Assembly: GCA_023078555.1 (NCBI GenBank)
Contig: CM041197.1
Coordinates: forward strand, 8,402,842 to 8,466,841
From: Ulva prolifera
Lineage: Eukaryota > Chlorophyta > Ulvophyceae > Ulvales > Ulvaceae
DNA: 64,000 nt
Direction: 5' to 3'
This document shows, piece by piece, positions 20,678 to 31,452 of this stretch; position 1 is the stretch's first letter; every line of letters starts with the position of its first letter. The notes under the pieces were generated by a model, which saw only the letters and a program-made list of their open reading frames with translations, was not told the DNA's origin and ran no database searches. The translations under genes and the position numbers were made by a program.

Positions 20678-23130
20678 TTTTCCTGGCTTGATACCTGTTT
20701 GAACAGCATTCACGTTAGTATGCTGTCCTGCGAGCCGTTGTAAGCACAGTCTGCTGGCTGCAACCAGCTAGACATCTGGGAACTCTGGTCCAACTCGATC
20801 AAATGGAGCTGATGCTGGCTTTGGGGAGGGAAGCAGTGCGACCCAGCTTACCTTGACAACGCAGCGACGTCTGATAGTCTTGCAGCCTAGCTGGTGCTAC
20901 TCGTTCGCGTCGCCCTCTTCCGAGACCTGATTTGCAGCCTGCACCGACAGTGCTCATCAGATACAGCGTTCGGATCAAGTACAAGTGGTGCCAAGAGGCA
21001 TACTGAGCGCGGCTGTTTGCGCCACTGCATGATCGGAATGGACACTGGACTTAAATTAAGTCGCGGGTGTAACATCAGTGTGTGCCAGTAGATGCCGCAG
21101 AGGCATGCCACATGCACTGCTCAGGCTGCGATCGAACAGCATCGCCATTGTCTTTCCAGGACGTCAACGCTTCTTGTCACCAAACGTGTCAGATAGCACA
21201 TTGCCCTTGCATGCATTTGACAACGCTCTGTCCTACGTTGTACATGTGTGGCAAGTATTCGAAGCAACACTAGCGAACGCGGAGCTGCTTGTGTCGGCAT
21301 GCACGTGCGTGTAACAAGCAGACGTTGCTGTGATGTCCTAGAAATGTGACATGTGATATCGGTAGATGGCGTACAGAACCGGACAATCATGCTCGCGTGA
21401 CGTTTTCGGTGCAGCAGCACATGATGGTGATCGAGACAGGAAAGGGACATCGCCAAGCACAAACTGTCGTCCTGAAAATACGCACCAGAAGTCATGATCG
21501 CAGTGGAGTCCTTCGATGTTATCCTCTTACGACTTGTCAAGCTGTATGCTCTCGGGTGAGCAGTAGATCTGAGCTCTCGAGTGCTCGAGTCGATGAGACA
21601 AACGATCAAGCGCCTGTTGCCGAAAACATGTAGAAAAGGGGGAATCTATTCACCTCTACTACTCTCTCTGGCCTGAATTGCTCACGAGTGACGGGGGAGC
21701 ACGATCATCTACGAACTGCGTATTTCAGTGATGCCGATACATCGCGATTGATACACTCCAGTGCGTGTGCGAACATTGTCAACCGGCTACGTGAAGAAAA
21801 CAAGCAGTCGAGAAGCAAGAAAACAATAAAATGGTAGGGACATATAGTGTATACGCGCTGGACAATATGGTTCGCCTCCGCAACGGAAAGGTTGACAACC
21901 GCGTAGCAACGTCGTCGAGTCAAAAGGCCTCGCGAGCAGGCAGGGAGACATGTGCAGCCGCTAGCTATGCAGCAGCGATCATTCTCCAGCTGCCGTAGGT
22001 GCTGCTCCACGAAGCAGCAATCTTGGTACGTCGCTGCCACTGTAGGCCATATGAGCTACATCATTTGGCCCTCATCGTTGCAGTGGCAATCGCCGGTACA
22101 CGCCGGCACGCGAGTGTTGACACGACCACAAGAAAGGCGCGTCCCTCAATCAAACTGTCGAATTTATTGAACTGATGTTCTCTCCCTGAGGACTGCCCGC
22201 CTGTGCAGCAAACATGTATGAAGGTAGCATGTCTCACTGCCAACTGCGACAGCCGTGGTGGCACAAGCCATGCACAGACCGCGTAATATGACTTCAAAGC
22301 ATAACACGCTTTATGGCGGGACTGCGCAGTTCCTCGATGCGGTCAGGCTGTTGGTGTTGAAATCTGGCTACGACGCAGCTTCCAGCTGTGCCAAAGGGAT
22401 GAGGTAGGGACGCTGAGTGCATAAGCAAAATTTCAAGACCTGAAGTTTGTGGCACTTGGCACAATATAGCAAATTCGGCCAGGAACTCCAACAGAACATC
22501 GGAGAGCCTTGTCACCGATATCGTTTCCATATGGAAACACAAAACCGCCACAGCCCTGGTGATCATACCAATACCCCTCTATCTAACTCTCTCATGCAGT
22601 AGGCACGACCATTCTACTGTCCTTGATGACGGAGATGTGCTTCAGTTCGGCTGATCGCAAAGCTGACCTCATTCTCAGAATGCACACTGTGGCCAGTGGC
22701 ACAGCGCTGTGAATAGTGCATGTTATTTTTCTTTATACAGCTTGAGGATTGGGGGTGCGTGGCGCTGGCACAGCTGCCTGCCTTGAGGCAACTCGCCATC
22801 ACTACTGCATGAAACAGAGAAGTACCTGCAGCTTCAGACGGTACAGTATGGACCCCTGTTCTGGGCAAAACCAGTTGCTGGCGAGACAACACTCCCAGGT
22901 TGTTTACCCCTCCGGCACTCCCGGTTATCGGGAGTTGTCAATGTCCCAAACGGCTACAGCTAGTGAAGTTGGCTGTTCTTGACTGTACATTGGCGGCCAT
23001 GTGATGAGTGTTCGATCATGGCCAGCAATTCAATTCAATGTGCTAGATTTGAAGTACACTGAAGCGAATTGGCAAAGCCATGCTCAGCACAGCCAAGCCA
23101 TAGACTCCATCATGAGCTCATGCCAGCATG

Positions 23131-23175
23131 TGTGGCAATCCAGTGGTGTAGCGGCCATATCACTGGATTGCCACA
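23131..23175. mobile_element. MITE-like inverted-repeat element, copy 2 (shortest)
   Basis: A 45-bp element with a perfect 15-bp terminal inverted repeat (TGTGGCAATCCAGTG / CACTGGATTGCCACA) around a 15-bp core gtgtagcggccatat. The flanks gcatg and acatg match at four of five bases, which may be a decayed target-site duplication. The same core is present in copy 1. Confidence 0.65.
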
Positions 23176-25279
23176 ACATGATACGATGCTGTCGAATTCC
23201 CAGATGCCACCTAATTTTACACCACTCCAAGCCAATGCCTGCGTCAGCTGTCATGTCGTAGCTATGGGCGCTGGCAACCTGTTTGAATTGGTGACTCTGT
23301 GCTGATCCGCTCGAATCTGCAGATGCGCAACATGCGTGCTGGCCAGGACCTGTTTGACTTGTCTCACATACACTGACCTAAGAGCTTGGAAGCCACATAC
23401 ACATGGCAATCAAGCACTTGAACATACCACGCACCATTGCTGTATAGTCGTCATACACTAGGAACCCTTTCCGTTTATGCTACATGCTGAAATATGTGAA
23501 ACCCTAGCTAGAGCAGGCATGAAGGCCAGTACACATGCTTTCAAAACCACCTTACACGGGTTGTTGAAACCCCAGTAAACACCAATTCCGCCATCATGCC
23601 TCACCAGACGGGCATATGCGGTATGGGGCTCAGCACACCAGTCGCCTGCTTTAAGGGTGGCCACTGGCTACGGCACATACGTAACTACGAAAAATACCAT
23701 GACATCAAGGTGGAGCTGGCACCGACTCATGCATGCTGGATTTCCGATCCTGCCGCGGCATGCAGCACGTGCACAAGTCCTCGCTGTATGTGGCACTTTG
23801 TGTGAACGAAACTTGCAAGCGAATCTGCACATGCAGAATGCCCATCCTTTCCCCACGTACACAGGCGCATGCCATTCTGACCGCGTCGCTAGCGAGCACA
23901 AGCGGCATGTGGGCCAGTCGTCTACAAACAAAGCGTCTACGTCTATCATTCGTGGGAACCGCATTCACAGGGGTCTGGCAACATATGCGCACAGCGTTGA
24001 TCATATGATCATATGAGCTGCAGACGTACCCAGTTAATTACAGACAGGACATATGTGAATCCAACGCTATGGCAATGTGATGCTGCACGTCCCCAAAGAG
24101 CGTTATTGCCGTAGGTCAGTTAACGTTGCCCGCCAGCGCACCTACGAGCAAGCCACGTTGATGGATCCGGATGCCTTCCTTGCAACCAGCCTGCGCAGTC
24201 TTGCCGCTATGGCCATCATGAGGAATCAAAAATTGATTTTGTGAGATCTAGGCCCACGGTGTGTTTCTGCAGCTTCTTCGGCCTACGTTGTCTGCGTGTG
24301 TACTCTGCACCATGTGCACGCATGCAGCGCCGGACAGCTCCTGATCGCACGCCAAGCCATTCCCACATGTATGCTCGCTGTGCAGAAATCGCGCAGCTGA
24401 CTTGCTGTGTGAAAGTTCTGTGTTCCTGGAGCATGTTCTGTATTGTTCGTCCTCCGATGTAGGGAGTGCCTCCAGCTGCCGAGGCCCGCGCGCTGCAGTG
24501 TCGTTGGATATCAGGCCTATTCGGGCACAGCACGACAACAGCAACCACCGATCGGAAGCAATGCTGATCTTTTTTGACAGATTTCGTGACTGAAAGTCCT
24601 GTGCGATCTGCGCGTACCTTTCCTATGCGCGGCTGAATATTCTTTGACGGAATTCGCCCGCATCGTCGGACCGAACAACGCTGCTTGCAACTTGCAGCGA
24701 TATGCTACTACTACTGTATAGAGTTCACATGCTACTTGGAGAGACTTAAACGGTGTCCCACAGATGGCTTGTCGAGAATGGTATGCATACTTCCCCGGGG
24801 TCAAGGGCACTCCCACCGACGTGCAACACACGACGGCCGATCAAACAGCACCAGCGCTACCGCCGAGTGCTCCTTGCATCTGTACAAAAAAAATTATTCT
24901 CAGCTGTGTTTGTGATAGCACCGCTCAGGCCCAGGCACGAAGCCGACATCAGCAAGCACCTTCTGCATCGACTCGGTTGGCCCACGTCTCATGCGGTCGC
25001 AGGCACGGCTCGTCAGCCTTGAGGTCAGACACAACATGTCCATCTAATTGAGACGAGCATGATGGTAGGACCACGCTCTCTCGGCTATGACATGCAGTAG
25101 CATGCTTCCTGCATCAGTCACAGGACATCAGATGGTCGAATATAGTTCATTCCTGGCCCACGCACGCTATCTCCTCCGACATACTCAAGCAGCCATCAGC
25201 ATTTGCGCTTGTTCATGATGTTCTCCATACGCTCGTTGAGCTGAGAGCTTGTTGCAGGAACTTGAGTGACTGACTCTCC

Positions 25280-26426
25280 ATGACTGGAAGGAGCCAGCAT
25301 GCTGGCCATTCGAGAGTGCTGCAGCACGATGAAGGCACGCACGCCACCTCGGGGAGCAAGCCTCGGCCAGTTGACACTGTACAGCAGCTGCTGACGGCAG
25401 TCACGGCTGGAGCCTCGCACATCGAGATTCGCCAGCACATGGACCTCTCAGCTCTGCCACTGCAGCATTCGCACAGAAGCCAGGATCATCAGCAGGCACA
25501 CTCCATCCTCGGAGCTCTGCCTGCAACAGTACAGACAGTGCGGGTACGCTGAATTTCTACCACTACCCGCTCGTATGCTCTGCTGCCTGTCGCAGCAACC
25601 TCACAGAGCTGCACGGGCCAAAAGCAATCAGCAACCTGGGGATACATCAGTACAATAAGTGCAACAGTATATCACTCCATCAAATTACCTGCATGCTCTG
25701 AGAGTCTGGCTGAGTAGGGCTTGGCACGTGGCATGAGGCACATACCATCGCAGGCACGCACACAGATCACAAATGCCAGATCACTCCCCAGCCCCTCGGC
25801 AGACGCACATTCCCGTGTCCCAAAGGTGCAGGCTGACGTCAGGCAGTTGACGTGTGATCACGGTCTCGGTACATACAATCCTTCCACCTTCCATGCAGCC
25901 CATGGGCAGCTACCCGGTGCCTGTGCGCTTGAGAGGATAGCGCATCTGAATCTTGACTGCTGCAATACAAAAATGCCACTGGTACACTGCACCACCACTG
26001 CTGCCATATCATCACAATATGCATCCTCACTGCTGCAGCATTGCTTCTTGACTGCATTACCACTGCTCCCGGGCTGCGGCATCACTTCTACCTGGCTGCA
26101 TCCTCACTGCATGCTCAAGATCCCTGGCTGCGTCCCCACTGCTCCCACACGGTGTCCCCACCTCTTCTTCGACTGCACGCCCTCACTGCGCCCTCACTGC
26201 GCCATCCCGGCATCGCCACTGCAGCATGCTCCCAACATGTCTGCACGCACCCCCCTCCCCGCCTGCTGCACCCCCCTCCCCGCCTGCTGCACCCCCCTCC
26301 CAACTTCATGTCTACGCCCCGCTCTGCCGGACCGCTGTCGCTGGCTGCGCTTTCACACCGCTGCCTCATACGCACAAACCACAGCATCGCCCGTCACCAC
26401 ACTCCTTACCAGCCCCCCCTGCTCTC

Positions 26427-26465
<39 letters not shown>

Positions 26466-29400
26466 ATTCCACTGTCAAACGACCATTCTGAAAATGAGCA
26501 AGGAAAGCGTCCATGCAGGGGAACTGCAGCGGCACCACGCCCACCACGGAGGCTCTGCTGCATGCTGCGGCGGAGCTACAGCCGCCGCTTCCACCGCTCG
26601 CGCCCGGGCAGTGCCTGATCCTCACCGACGCCAACGCGATCGCCGCCTGGCACACCCTCTGGCTCGACAGCCTCCTCCTCCGCCACGTGCCCTCACGGCG
26701 CTCCCCCGGCGCCGCATGGCTGCTCGGCGGTGGCGCTCCTCCCGCCGCCACTGCCCCCGGCCCTGCAGCAGCGCTGTATCTCACCCGCACGACCCTGCAG
26801 GGCTCCGTTGCGGTGCCCGCCGACCAGGAAGGCGGTGCAGGCGGCAGAGGAGACAGGGGCGCGGCGGGCCAGGCGCGGCCAAGCCTCTCGCAGGAGCTGC
26901 ATCGGGACGGGAGCGGCTCGGTCGGGGTGGTCCTGCGGGACTCACTTTTTGCTGGTGGTGCGCTGTGCTCTGAGCGTTATATGTATGGTGTACTCGTTGC
27001 GTTCTACCTGCATGCGGACTGTGGCCGCAGTGCGGACGCTCGAGCCCTTGAGTCGAACCCTATACATGCACTCTTCCGTCATTTGAGGCTTTACATACAA
27101 CTTGATACAACAAGACAGCCCGCACTTGCGTGTGTGCTGCTCCACTGCCGCATTTGATTCTGCCTGCATAGCTATGTGCCGCATGCTGCTCAGCGATGCA
27201 TTCTGTCCATGCCCTACATGCTGCACCTGCATGCAAGCATGTCTGCAGGTTGCACCTTTGCAAATTTCGGCGGTGGCCAGGCGGCCGCCGTCCTCGCAAC
27301 ACACCCCGCCGCCTCCGCGTCCTTCACCAACTGCACGTTTCAGAGCAACACCTTCCCCCCGGCCCCGCCCGCCAACACCCTGCCTGGAGCCCCTGCAGCC
27401 GTGGAGGTCCCCACCACGGCCGTCCCCCCCGCGGCGATCCGCGTGACCACAACCCCGGCCGCAGTGCGACTCGAACAGTGTCTGTTCCGCGGCAACGCAC
27501 AGGCGGGGGGCCGCGGCACCGGGACAGCGGTGGAGGACTGCGCCGATGTCGCCGTGGCGGACGGCGTCAGGGTTTACGCAGACACACAGAGCTCTGCCAC
27601 GTGGCGCGCGCGTGACGGCGGGGGCTGGCAGGTGGGGGGAATGTGGATCGATGGCGTCAACACGCAGCCGCTGTCCGCCGCCCACGCCGGCGACTTCCTG
27701 TCCGTGGGTGATGACTGGCTGCAGGCGCGGCTGGAGGTGCGTCCCGCGGACGCAGTCCCGGCCCCCTGGGCCTCATGCAGCGGCTTGAAGCATGCTTGCA
27801 CACAATCTTCTGAGGCTATACTGCATACTGTAGTATCTGTGCTCTGCAGGTGGACTGGGCCGCGCACTTTCCGGTTGCGCCGCCACAGGGGGCCACGGCA
27901 GGAGCTCCCGCCGCGAGCCTACAGAACGAGGCCAGGGCACAGCCCAGGGCAGCGATGGAGATCGGCGGCGGCGCGATCGCGCTGTTCACGGTCTTCTCCT
28001 TTGCCGCCGTGATGTGCGCCTCCCTGATGATCTTCTGGTGCTGGTGGCGCCTGAACCGCGCACCGCCGCTCACGGGCGAGCTCCCGGTGCGAACCCCGTA
28101 GTATCGCCGTGCACGCCTGTGCATGTAGGCTGCGCCCTGTACTCGCGCATACGCCTGCAATGTATGTCAAGGGCACCAGAGCTGCAGTGTTTGTCGTCGG
28201 TCTATCTCTGCTGCGGTCTAATGCTGACGCACATATGCCGGCAGTGCTCTACACCCCACCGGGACTCTACATCCCGCCAGGACTCCCGCTGAAATAGAGC
28301 TTCTGTCTGAAAATCCCGCCACGGGTGAGCTGAAGGCATCGGACGGCCCGCTGAAAACGGGCTGTTAAAGCAGATGTCAGCGGGCGCAGCCCGCTGGCAT
28401 CTGTATGTCGCAGCGGGCTTTCCCGCTGGAATATGCATCACGCGAGGCAAGCGAGCGGGATGTTGTGACAGCACGAGCGGAGTGAGCAACCCTCCTCGCG
28501 AGTGAAGCGAGCGCTAGCTTGGGCAGGTCCACACTGTGCAGCGCAAAGTGCCATTAGGGTTACAGTGCCGTTAGGGTTACAGTGTGCTTGGTCGTCAGCG
28601 CCGCATGTATAGCATGCTAACACTCCACTGCTACATATATATTTGATGCTCGATCGTCTTGTAATTCAACGCTGTTTGTCTTCTTAGCTGTGTACAATGC
28701 TTCGTCGATTCGGTTTCACGGTTGTGATCCCAGAGGGATGCATCGCATCGGGAAGGCCCTCCGGAAATGACAAGGCCAGAGGGGTAATACCACTGGGATT
28801 AGTCATGTACAGGGGGAAATCCCCCCTCCAAAAACTGGCCGTGCAGAGCACTGTATGCCAGAGTCAAACCACATACTATGCAGCCTGTGCAATGCCCGCA
28901 CCCTGGGACATGCGCGGCTGATGCCCCTGCAGCGGGAGGCAGAGTCCGTCCCTCCAGCACAGCCACGCATGTGCTGTGCAGGCCGCGCCGGTGACCCCTG
29001 TGAAACCCCCCCTCAAGCTGCACCAGTCGCACACCGCGGTCGTGCGCACAGCCGGAAACACGAACCCTGTGTTCCCCCCTGCACACCCCTCCGGTGAGCC
29101 GGCGCGGCCCGGCCGCATCCAGAAGTTCAGCACGTTCCCGCAGCCCCACATCGCCGCACGGCCCGCGCTCACGCACAGCAACCCCTTCTACGACGCCGCG
29201 ATGCGCTCCCCGGACTCGAGCCCGACGGCCGCGGACTCCCGCGCATCCTCCTCCGCGGTGTCCGCGGCGCTGCTGCACGCGTCCCGCACCGACGCCGCGG
29301 CGGCGCTGCCGCCACCGCCGCCGCGGCTGCCGGTGTCTCTGCTGCGGCTGCAGCTCGGCGCAGCGGAGGCGCTGCGGCAGCGGCGGCCGCCGCCGCTGCC

Positions 29401-31452
29401 GCGCGCCGACACCGTGGCGGCCGGCAGCTGGGAGGAGATGCCGGACTCCGAGACCACGGCGGCGGCAGCCATGCGGCTGCCGCCGCTGGCACCGGTGCCG
29501 CCGCCGGGCGCGCCGGCGTGGCAGCGGCTGGAGTTTGTGCACCAGCAGCTTGACAGCATCGCCGGGTGGGAGGTGCTGGAGGGGCTGGTGCTGCAGCCGC
29601 AGCGATGCAGGCGACTGCAGGGCGGTGTGTGTCCATCTCTTCCACCGCCTGCACAGGCGTAGCTTAGCCAGCAGACAACCCAACAAGCTCTCCCCACCCC
29701 ACAGTCCGCTTCAGTGCCGCAAAAAACCAACCAGACTCTTCAATGCACCGTTTGCCTGTGTTGAATCGCTCCGCTCGCGACACTGTTCTTGCAATGCATC
29801 CCTGTTTGGCATTGTGCACGCATGCATTCAGCCACAGAAATTTGCACGTTTGTGCCCCTCTCCCCGGGGGTTACCCAAGGGCCCCATTGCAACACGAACG
29901 CCGCGGCGTGCTTCTGCAGGCCAGGCGATCATCCAGCTCGCCACAGACCGAAAGACGGGCCAGCTGTGGGCGGTCAAGTTCTTCCTGTCGGCCAGAGGCT
30001 TCGAAGACGAAGCCACACTGTACCGCGACCCCGGCTGCCCGCTGAGCCCCTTCCTACCGCCCGTGCGCAACATCATCGGCGGCGGCGGCGGCGGCACCGG
30101 AGGCCAAAGCAGCCCCGCGGCCGCCGCCGAGGCCGGGCGGGGTGCACTGGAGGGGCGGATCGTGGACGTGTTTGGGCGGCCGCTGCCGCCATGCATTGTG
30201 ATGGAGCACGGGGAGTCCCTGGACGTGTGGCGCACGCGCAACGCTGCCGATGGGATCGATGTCTTCACCGCGCTACAGGTACGCTGCGCGTGATGCGTTG
30301 CGGCTCTCCCTCGTGGCGTCTGTTGCACGTTCGACATTCGCACCGATGCGTTTACACCAGTGTTGGGTTGCGGTGCAGCATTTCCAGTGCTGCCACCCGG
30401 AAATTAGACCTGAATCTTCGGAATTGTTCCATACGATCGGACCCGACGACCCAACACCGGTTCACACCCGCGATGTACGTCAACGCTTCACAGTATCCGT
30501 CTCTTGTGGGAGGGTGGGCACGTGATGTGCCTGGTAGCCTCCAGGAGAGTTCCCCGATTGCTATCTCATTTGTGTCGGGAGTATAATGGTGGAAAGCAAA
30601 ATGTGGCGCGGGGCGCCGGTGGAGTGCGCTCACGTGCCCCTCGGCTGCAGATTGTGAACCACATCGCCGAGAGGCTCGCCGCGGTGCACGACGCGGGGTT
30701 CGTGCACCGCGACCTCAAGCCCTCCAACGTCATGTGGCTGCCGCGCCGCAGCCGCTGGACGCTGATCGACTTCGGCTGCGCGGCGCGCGCCGGCGCCGCC
30801 GCGCCGCTGTCCTTCAGCCCCGCGTACGCTGCGCCGGAGGTGGCGCGCGCGCACCGCGCGGGGCATGGCAGCCTCGCCGCCGACCCCAAGGCTGACGCAT
30901 GGTCCCTCGGCATCGTTGCCATCGAGGTCTTCTGCAACCGGATGCCCTTGGACCTGATGGAAGGCGAGGACATGGTACAGCCCCCCAGCCTGTGTCAACG
31001 CAGCGGTGTGATTTATATTATGGCAGTACAGTGTCTTAGCGCAGCAAACTGTTGCGCGCATGCGGCAGGAGCCAAATCCGCCGTCGTTCGGAGTCCTGAG
31101 GCCCCCCGCATGCATGGCGTGCCTTGCGGTGCAGGTCATGCGGCGCATCGTCGGGGAGCTGCCGCTGCCGTGGGAGGACGTGCAGACGGGGGCGCCGATC
31201 GCACGCGCGCTCGGCCGCTACCGCGGCACCATCATGTCCCTCTTGCACCGCGACCCGGCCCGTCGGCCGACCGTCGCGGAGTTCCTCCGCACCTCGCGCG
31301 ACATCGTCTCCCGCGTCTCCACGTCCGTGCCCGCCAGGGTCATCGCCCTGTCCGCGGCAGACCATGCTGCGCGTGCTGCGCCGCCGAGCAGCCCCCCACG
31401 CATCGCTCTGCGTATGGAGCTCGGCCACGGCACCGTGTCGGGTGCTATGTGA
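25280..31452 (+). CDS. Receptor-like Ser/Thr kinase with pectin-lyase-fold (beta-helix) ectodomain
   Basis: Predicted single-pass receptor kinase. Exons: 25280-25543, 26519-26954, 27249-27736, 27850-28086, 28982-29624, 29920-30278, 30651-30974, 31135-31452; all seven junctions are GT-AG with matching phases, giving 1022 residues from ATG 25280. Residues about 38-396 look like a right-handed beta-helix: VDTVQQLLTAVTAGASHIEI, then TVR|GNCSG across intron 1, LYLTRTTLQG, GCTFANFGGG and FTNCTFQSN. A TM segment lies at about 435-462 (AIALFTVFSFAAVMCASLMI). A Pro/Ala-rich juxtamembrane stretch follows. The kinase (about 690-980) has AVK (Lys709), HRDLKPSN (Asp830), DFG (Asp849), APE (Glu872), DAWSLGIVAIEVF and LLHRDPARRPT, so it should be active. 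The glycine loop is degenerate (LQGGQAIIQLA). No signal peptide is visible from ATG 25280, so an upstream exon is probably missing. The ligand is unknown; a carbohydrate or cell-wall polymer would be a guess from the fold. Confidence 0.82.
26429..26464. repeat. C36 homopolymer in receptor-kinase intron 1
   Basis: A run of 36 C on the sense strand, 54 bases before the intron 1 acceptor at 26518. The preceding 200 bases are also C-rich, with a 20-base tandem unit (cacccccctccccgcctgct) near 26250-26290. The exact length may be unreliable in sequencing. Confidence 0.8.
28320..28584. repeat. Cluster of GC-rich hairpins and a TTAGGG-containing tandem pair in receptor-kinase intron 4
   Basis: 28371-28403 is a 15-bp inverted repeat with one mismatch and a 3-base loop (cagatgtcagcgggc gca gcccgctggcatctg). 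28411-28428 is a second perfect hairpin (cagcggg cttt cccgctg). 28430-28515 carries gagcggagtgagc and gcgagtgaagcgagcg, the kind of palindromic filler common in green-algal organelle DNA (general knowledge). 28551-28584 is a 17-bp unit repeated twice (cc[a/g]ttagggttacagtg). Confidence 0.6.

Follow-up and report, generated by a model that had tools for sequence, protein, structure and literature searches.

Gene structure

In the window, i.e., the whole 64-kb stretch of Ulva prolifera DNA analysed here (overall GC content 58.8%), positions 25280–31452 of the + strand carry a gene of eight exons, which when joined encode a predicted protein of 1,022 amino acids, followed by a TGA stop. The eight-exon model had been proposed in a sequence-only reading of the same DNA and was reproduced to the base; all seven introns are of the GT-AG type and their phases are consistent. 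An ectodomain, one transmembrane (TM) segment and a kinase follow each other in one reading frame of the sequence model, and thus the architecture of a receptor-like kinase is present; gene structure and order of the parts can be read directly from the DNA.

In the ectodomain module, of about 300 residues, three parts can be distinguished: the motif DIEIRxHLDL at the N-terminus, the part APGQCL...WLD and a part with rung-like motifs. Exon 1 as modelled (25280–25543, residues 1–88) contains the candidate start codon and the N-terminal motif (core at 25370–25462); it was matched by the exon 1 query of a paralog (E 0.035) and could be aligned with 11 paralogs, the donor position being conserved. 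Exon 2 (26519–26954, residues 89–233) encodes the conserved part GNCS...LAPGQCLILT...LWLDSLLLR, and a match from the exon 2 query of a paralog on contig C5 started exactly at 26519 (E 2.7e-5); the queries which matched exons 1 and 2 were from two different C5 paralogs. Exon 3 (27249–27736, residues 234–396), which was aligned with two paralogs, contains the rung-like repeats AASASFTNCTFQSN and PAAVRLEQCLFRGN and the module end FLSVGDDWLQARLEV, and is a candidate for a short beta-helix. The single TM segment is encoded by exon 4 (27850–28086, residues 397–475) at about residues 434–460 (27961–28041), with a hydropathy peak at residues 439–457 (mean 2.35); inspection of ORF listings by eye showed a TM-bearing ORF at the corresponding place in the paralogous loci L013, L019 and L028. 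Exon 5 (28982–29624, residues 476–689) encodes a Pro/Ala-rich juxtamembrane region and the start of the kinase N-lobe, and its last part was found in five other loci. The remainder of the kinase is divided between exon 6 (29920–30278; N-lobe with a Gly/Ala-rich insert), exon 7 (30651–30974; catalytic core) and exon 8 (31135–31452; end of the C-lobe and a short tail to the stop codon), the position of intron 7 being common to paralogs.

GC3 values were 0.81–0.94 in exons 2–8 and 0.64 in exon 1; the GC content of the introns was 0.54–0.61. For two Ulva genomes, GC contents of 57.2–57.3% have been reported (PMC9266709), as compared with 58.8% in the window. In intron 1, directly 5' of the acceptor of exon 2, C-rich short repeats and an extended poly-C run are found at 26240–26470. 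A GC-rich, repeat-like stretch is present in intron 4 (28330–28520); a repeat search found no inverted repeat in 28250–28600, and a probe of 20 bases occurred nowhere else in the window.

Kinase domain

A Pfam search with the window protein detected Pkinase (1e-22, residues 771–969), plus overlapping kinase-like families. The catalytic residues which had been named from the sequence, K709 (AVKFF; codon at 29976, exon 6), D830 (HRDLKPSN; codon at 30711) and D849 (IDFG; codon at 30768), both in exon 7, are in place, and the APE motif (AAPEV) is present in exon 7 as well. The glycine loop is unorthodox (LQGGQAIIQLA), likewise in the paralogs L013 and L031. Where they could be aligned, exon 7 of the window gene and the kinase exons of 21 loci retrieved from the genome were 43–62% identical, and HRD and DFG were kept in 19 of the 21 loci in which kinase exon 7 was read. 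In L017, HRN replaces HRD; L031 (with L028, on contig C2 at about 8.19 Mb) has the same gene layout, and its kinase reads HRDIRTGN and GFG, which predicts a pseudokinase.

The family in the Ulva prolifera genome

The genome assembly searched comprised 88.9 Mb in 44 contigs. It encodes chlorophyll a/b proteins of the green lineage, and an LHCII protein matched structures from that lineage (two of the top rows being long chains with summed scores); the RuBisCO large subunit was not found in the assembly. With the window kinase as query, at least 127 matches at E ≤ 1e-5 were obtained, merging into at least 118 loci, a lower bound, since 124 of 562 candidates were scored; the counts are of exon matches rather than gene models, and the weakest of the 118 may be other kinases. 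Three kinase loci on contig C23 mirror three loci on C7 (about 0.62–0.64 Mb) with alike spacing and near-equal scores; they may represent duplicated assembly or a recent copy, and hence some of the 118 are possibly duplicates. Queries with ectodomain exons 1 and 2 gave 118 and 102 matches, respectively, in the genome, at a cut-off of E 10 (E of the weakest matches listed, 0.67 and 0.48). With an HMM built from exon 2, matches were obtained in 17 of 20 regions, three of them seeds (weakest match 0.0025), and none in L014, L015 and L016; a hand-made regular expression for an exon 2-like pattern returned nothing.

Ectodomain and kinase exons occur in a preferred order. Within 8 kb of the 118 kinase loci, a same-strand ectodomain exon was located upstream of 70 and downstream of 21, the latter presumably belonging to the next gene of an array; ectodomain exons on the opposite strand were found upstream of none and downstream of two. 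At 48 of the 118 loci no ectodomain exon was detected within 8 kb, being missed, diverged or different. The order is evident in an array on contig C5, with 40 kinase loci at 7.15–8.75 Mb, where 33 of 42 ectodomain exon 1 matches were followed by a kinase 2.5–8 kb further on, on the same strand; random placement gave a mean of 3.0 (maximum 10 in 2,000) and circular shifts a mean of 2.8 (maximum 12). The size of the family and its arrays are plain from the assembly; the window gene looks intact and belongs to a large green-algal family of cell-surface receptor kinases, part of which is arranged in tandem.

A different composition was found on contig C4, where about 30 ectodomain loci are present at 6.3–6.75 Mb, mostly without this kinase; one kinase locus only was detected in this array with the window kinase query (C4:6626328, E 1.2e-16). 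In one C4 copy, L038, of which 9 kb were read, a hydrophobic leader, a pair of ectodomain modules separated by about 3 kb and a TM segment were seen, and no kinase of the window gene's type was present; L030 likewise has two modules.

Integrity of the gene and start of the protein

That an ectodomain, a TM segment and an intact kinase are parts of one gene, as the sequence-only reading had held, is well supported by common intron positions and by the repeated genomic order of ectodomain, then kinase. Introns were compared with those of two paralogs, namely L028+L031 on the same contig, whose exon 1 motif lies about 0.24 Mb from that of the window gene, and L013 on contig C7, with ectodomain identities to the window gene of 36% and 31%, respectively. 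In L028+L031, both splice sites of six of the seven introns (1, 2, 3, 5, 6 and 7) lie at homologous positions, in equal phase; in L013 this applies to introns 1, 2, 5 and 6, the donor of intron 2 being a few bases off the anchor, and for introns 3 and 7 only the donor was matched. Because intron positions and phases are common to paralogs, the exon model is more than a product of chance. The locus could also be read as two genes, one for an ectodomain-TM protein and another, starting near exon 5, for a soluble kinase, since reading on into intron 4, between the TM exon and the juxtamembrane exon, leads to an in-frame stop (...GELPVRTP-stop, 28099–28101), and since two modules and a TM segment, with no kinase of the window gene's type, were seen in the part of the C4 copy L038 that was read. 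However, plausible phase-0 sites for intron 4 were also seen, by eye in the ORF listings, in L013 and L028, the first ATG in the frame of exon 5 is located about 220 bases inside the exon, and ectodomain and kinase remain paired on one strand throughout the C5 array; a division into two genes appears therefore very improbable.

The start of the protein is doubtful. A signal peptide is absent from the 1,022-residue model, and a simple hydropathy filter (peptides of at least 18 amino acids) applied to 21500–25600 yielded none that was convincing, the one ATG-led candidate, at 21867, being weak. A missed signal-peptide exon is likely, because L028 (strong, by hydropathy scan) and L038 have hydrophobic leaders; such an exon would be easy to miss, since the leader of L038, as judged by eye, has an ORF of its own, upstream of the module. 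The result of the upstream scan, together with the low GC3 of exon 1 and the GFG in place of DFG in the same-contig relative L028+L031, could also point to a decaying or non-secreted copy, which has lost its signal-peptide exon and does not work as a receptor. We consider this unlikely in view of eight exons which are all open, the retained catalytic motifs, the high GC3 of exons 2–8 and the ease with which a leader exon placed as in L038 is overlooked.

Fold of the ectodomain

The ectodomain had been interpreted as a pectin-lyase-type beta-helix extending over residues 30–400. This reading finds partial support in rung-like motifs of exon 3, but neither a Pfam beta-helix family nor a significant PDB match was obtained, and the proposed extent did not hold, as exons 1 and 2 of the window gene scored no better than shuffled sequences. 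The Pfam search found no beta-helix family in the window protein, in five paralog ectodomain ORFs or in two window ORFs; the paralog ectodomain ORFs had weak matches, below the cut-off, to DUF5957, DUF347 and Pentapeptide_3. Genome searches were carried out with PF13229, where the window was not among the matches, and with PF02415, which gave three rows, none over the cut-off and none at the window. In the PDB, no match was found for exon 3 of a paralog, and a profile of the module had one match only, at E 0.21. Profile comparison against two of the genome's own Beta_helix proteins resulted in 4–5% probability and was uninformative. Structure prediction covered exon 3 alone, from the bare sequence without an alignment, and gave a mean pLDDT of 36.4, too poor for a fold search.

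A rung motif of 17 residues was learned from L032 and L033, two loci encoding Pfam Beta_helix proteins, with 67 Cys-centred seeds selected by a simple rule. Exon 3 of the window gene reached a score of 22.9 (best three places), which none of 500 shuffles equalled, while for exons 1 and 2 scores as high were obtained with 274 and 472 of 500 shuffles, respectively. Among 14 ORFs from the exon 3 region, which were hand-chosen stretches and included some close relatives (L009, L012), eight, with the window, were at ≤ 4/500 shuffles and six were without clear excess; none of eight controls reached ≤ 4/500, the lowest being 26/500. The test would support two or three rungs, not a fold, and a short right-handed beta-helix within exon 3 appears plausible.

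Proteins with Pfam Beta_helix matches are abundant in this genome: dozens of long ORFs match this family at C2 0.13–0.98 Mb and in other places (L032, L033), many of them of 850–1,080 amino acids, and they apparently constitute a separate expanded family. At L029 (C1 7165500–7173400), a kinase of the type described here is located about 5 kb downstream of a Beta_helix match (45.9 bits), on the same strand.

It is quite possible, if on the whole somewhat doubtful, that the ectodomain has another repeat or beta-rich fold, and that its CxF motif only mimics rungs. The missing Pfam match, the PDB results for the paralog's exon 3 and for the module profile, the low probabilities in the profile comparisons, the poor prediction for exon 3 and the six ORFs of 14 without clear rung excess are all in keeping with such a fold; on the other side are the scores of exon 3 of the window gene and of seven other ORFs, which were not reached by the controls, and the candidate joining of Beta_helix and kinase on contig C1. 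Compared with right-handed parallel beta-helix proteins (PF13229, pectin-lyase-like), exon 3 of the window gene thus resembles two of the genome's Beta_helix proteins in its rung-like motifs, but differs by the lack of a Pfam match and by having only two or three visible rungs. One scan of prokaryote genomes and one of viral contigs gave no confirmed occurrence of the module, and one scan of viral contigs none of the window kinase; such scans need short peptide matches first.

Sequence constraint

Values of dN/dS for kinase exon 7 and for the ectodomain exons were determined for ten paralog pairs. Kinase values were 0.06, 0.07, 0.10, 0.12, 0.16 and 0.18 in six pairs and 0.41 in L021-L023; those of the ectodomain exons were 0.15–0.74 where unsaturated. 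Values usable on both sides were obtained for six pairs (L019-L021, L019-L023, L021-L023, L022-L026, L012-L009 and L010-L011), and in five of these informative pairs the kinase exon was more constrained than the ectodomain exons, although the pairs are not independent, three of them being drawn from L019, L021 and L023, and the exon 1 comparison of L010-L011 is already old (dS 1.66). The reverse trend was seen in L021-L023, with ectodomain values of 0.32–0.35. In two pairs with the window gene the kinase (0.45 and 0.64) was not more constrained than the ectodomain (0.34–0.50); the partner in the 0.64 pair looks like a pseudokinase. The pair L012-L014 was without a usable ectodomain value, and the nearly identical pair L018-L024 (kinase 1.00, ectodomain 0.92) is uninformative because of its very few differences.

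Purifying selection on coding sequence appears to act on both parts of the gene, and in the pairs compared the ectodomain usually, though not universally, changes faster at the protein level than the kinase. Positive selection was considered and is unsupported by the dN/dS values, the ratios near 1 (L018-L024) resting on very few differences.

Comparison with known receptor kinases

Plant RLK/Pelle kinases, such as LRR-, lectin-, WAK-, LysM- and malectin-RLKs, likewise combine an ectodomain, a single TM segment and a Ser/Thr kinase in one protein, and they are alike also in occurring in arrays and in having a kinase mostly more constrained than the ectodomain. The kinase-less relatives of the Ulva family may be comparable to plant RLPs, and the C4 array, with kinase-less relatives alongside receptor kinases, could by analogy be set beside the split of RLKs and RLPs in land plants. 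In contrast to the plant proteins, the Ulva ectodomain matches none of their Pfam families; furthermore, the best 60 of 1,044 PDB matches of the window kinase bore names such as DMPK, OSR1, PAK4, MELK and TAK1, with no plant receptor kinase or IRAK label among these 60. The receptor-like kinase architecture is, as far as sequence comparison can tell, of a known kind, and the ectodomain module matches no named family tested.

Surveys of RLKs in algae count the plant RLK class, to which the window kinase may or may not belong. A table in a review gives, among the rows listed, 1–4 RLKs per chlorophyte, i.e., about 4 in Chlamydomonas reinhardtii, 1 in Ulva mutabilis and 2 in Coccomyxa, and the distribution is called patchy (PMC10868138). 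WAK-, malectin- and G-lectin-RLKs and an expansion of LRR-RLKs have been described for green algae (PMC10834447). The LRR receptor kinases of brown algae, described as independently evolved (PMC8307928), are likewise algal membrane receptor kinases, but differ in their LRR ectodomain and in lineage. Outside plants, an expanded family of transmembrane kinases is known from Entamoeba (EhTMK; PMC2880585); it shares the expansion with the Ulva family and differs in lineage. A term search of open-licence literature, mostly abstracts, did not turn up any green-algal family of beta-helix receptor kinases.

Proposed function and significance

The product of the window gene is probably a single-pass receptor-like Ser/Thr kinase, one of a family that has expanded in this green alga, with an ectodomain module, a TM helix and an intact cytoplasmic kinase. 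We infer an outward orientation of the ectodomain, a possible beta-helix within it and extracellular ligands of varied nature, e.g., microbial, cell-wall or self/non-self. The ectodomain would then face the wall or the medium, where binding of a ligand or partner would change the state of the kinase, and the cytoplasmic kinase would phosphorylate cytoplasmic targets and so carry the signal; diverging ectodomains could recognise varied extracellular ligands and drive a common kinase output. Arrays in which ectodomains diverge while the kinase is constrained would be in keeping with the recognition of various ligands. Sensing of polysaccharides or wall fragments may be speculated upon, being no better supported than that of microbial or self signals.

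On a larger scale, the kinase arrays and the kinase-less multi-module array, which have in common a previously undescribed ectodomain module diversifying above a conserved kinase, could perhaps be parts of a large system of recognition receptors which evolved independently of land plants and resembles the plant RLK/RLP repertoires for immunity or self-recognition; this we put forward tentatively, as a conjecture with somewhat less than an even chance. The main interest lies in the finding that the window gene belongs to a large family with arrays, something that was invisible to the sequence-only reading. About 70 ectodomain-kinase loci and a mostly kinase-less array would imply a separate origin of a large receptor repertoire in green algae; the family provides a defined set of genes with which to test the sensing of microbes, walls or mates by algae.
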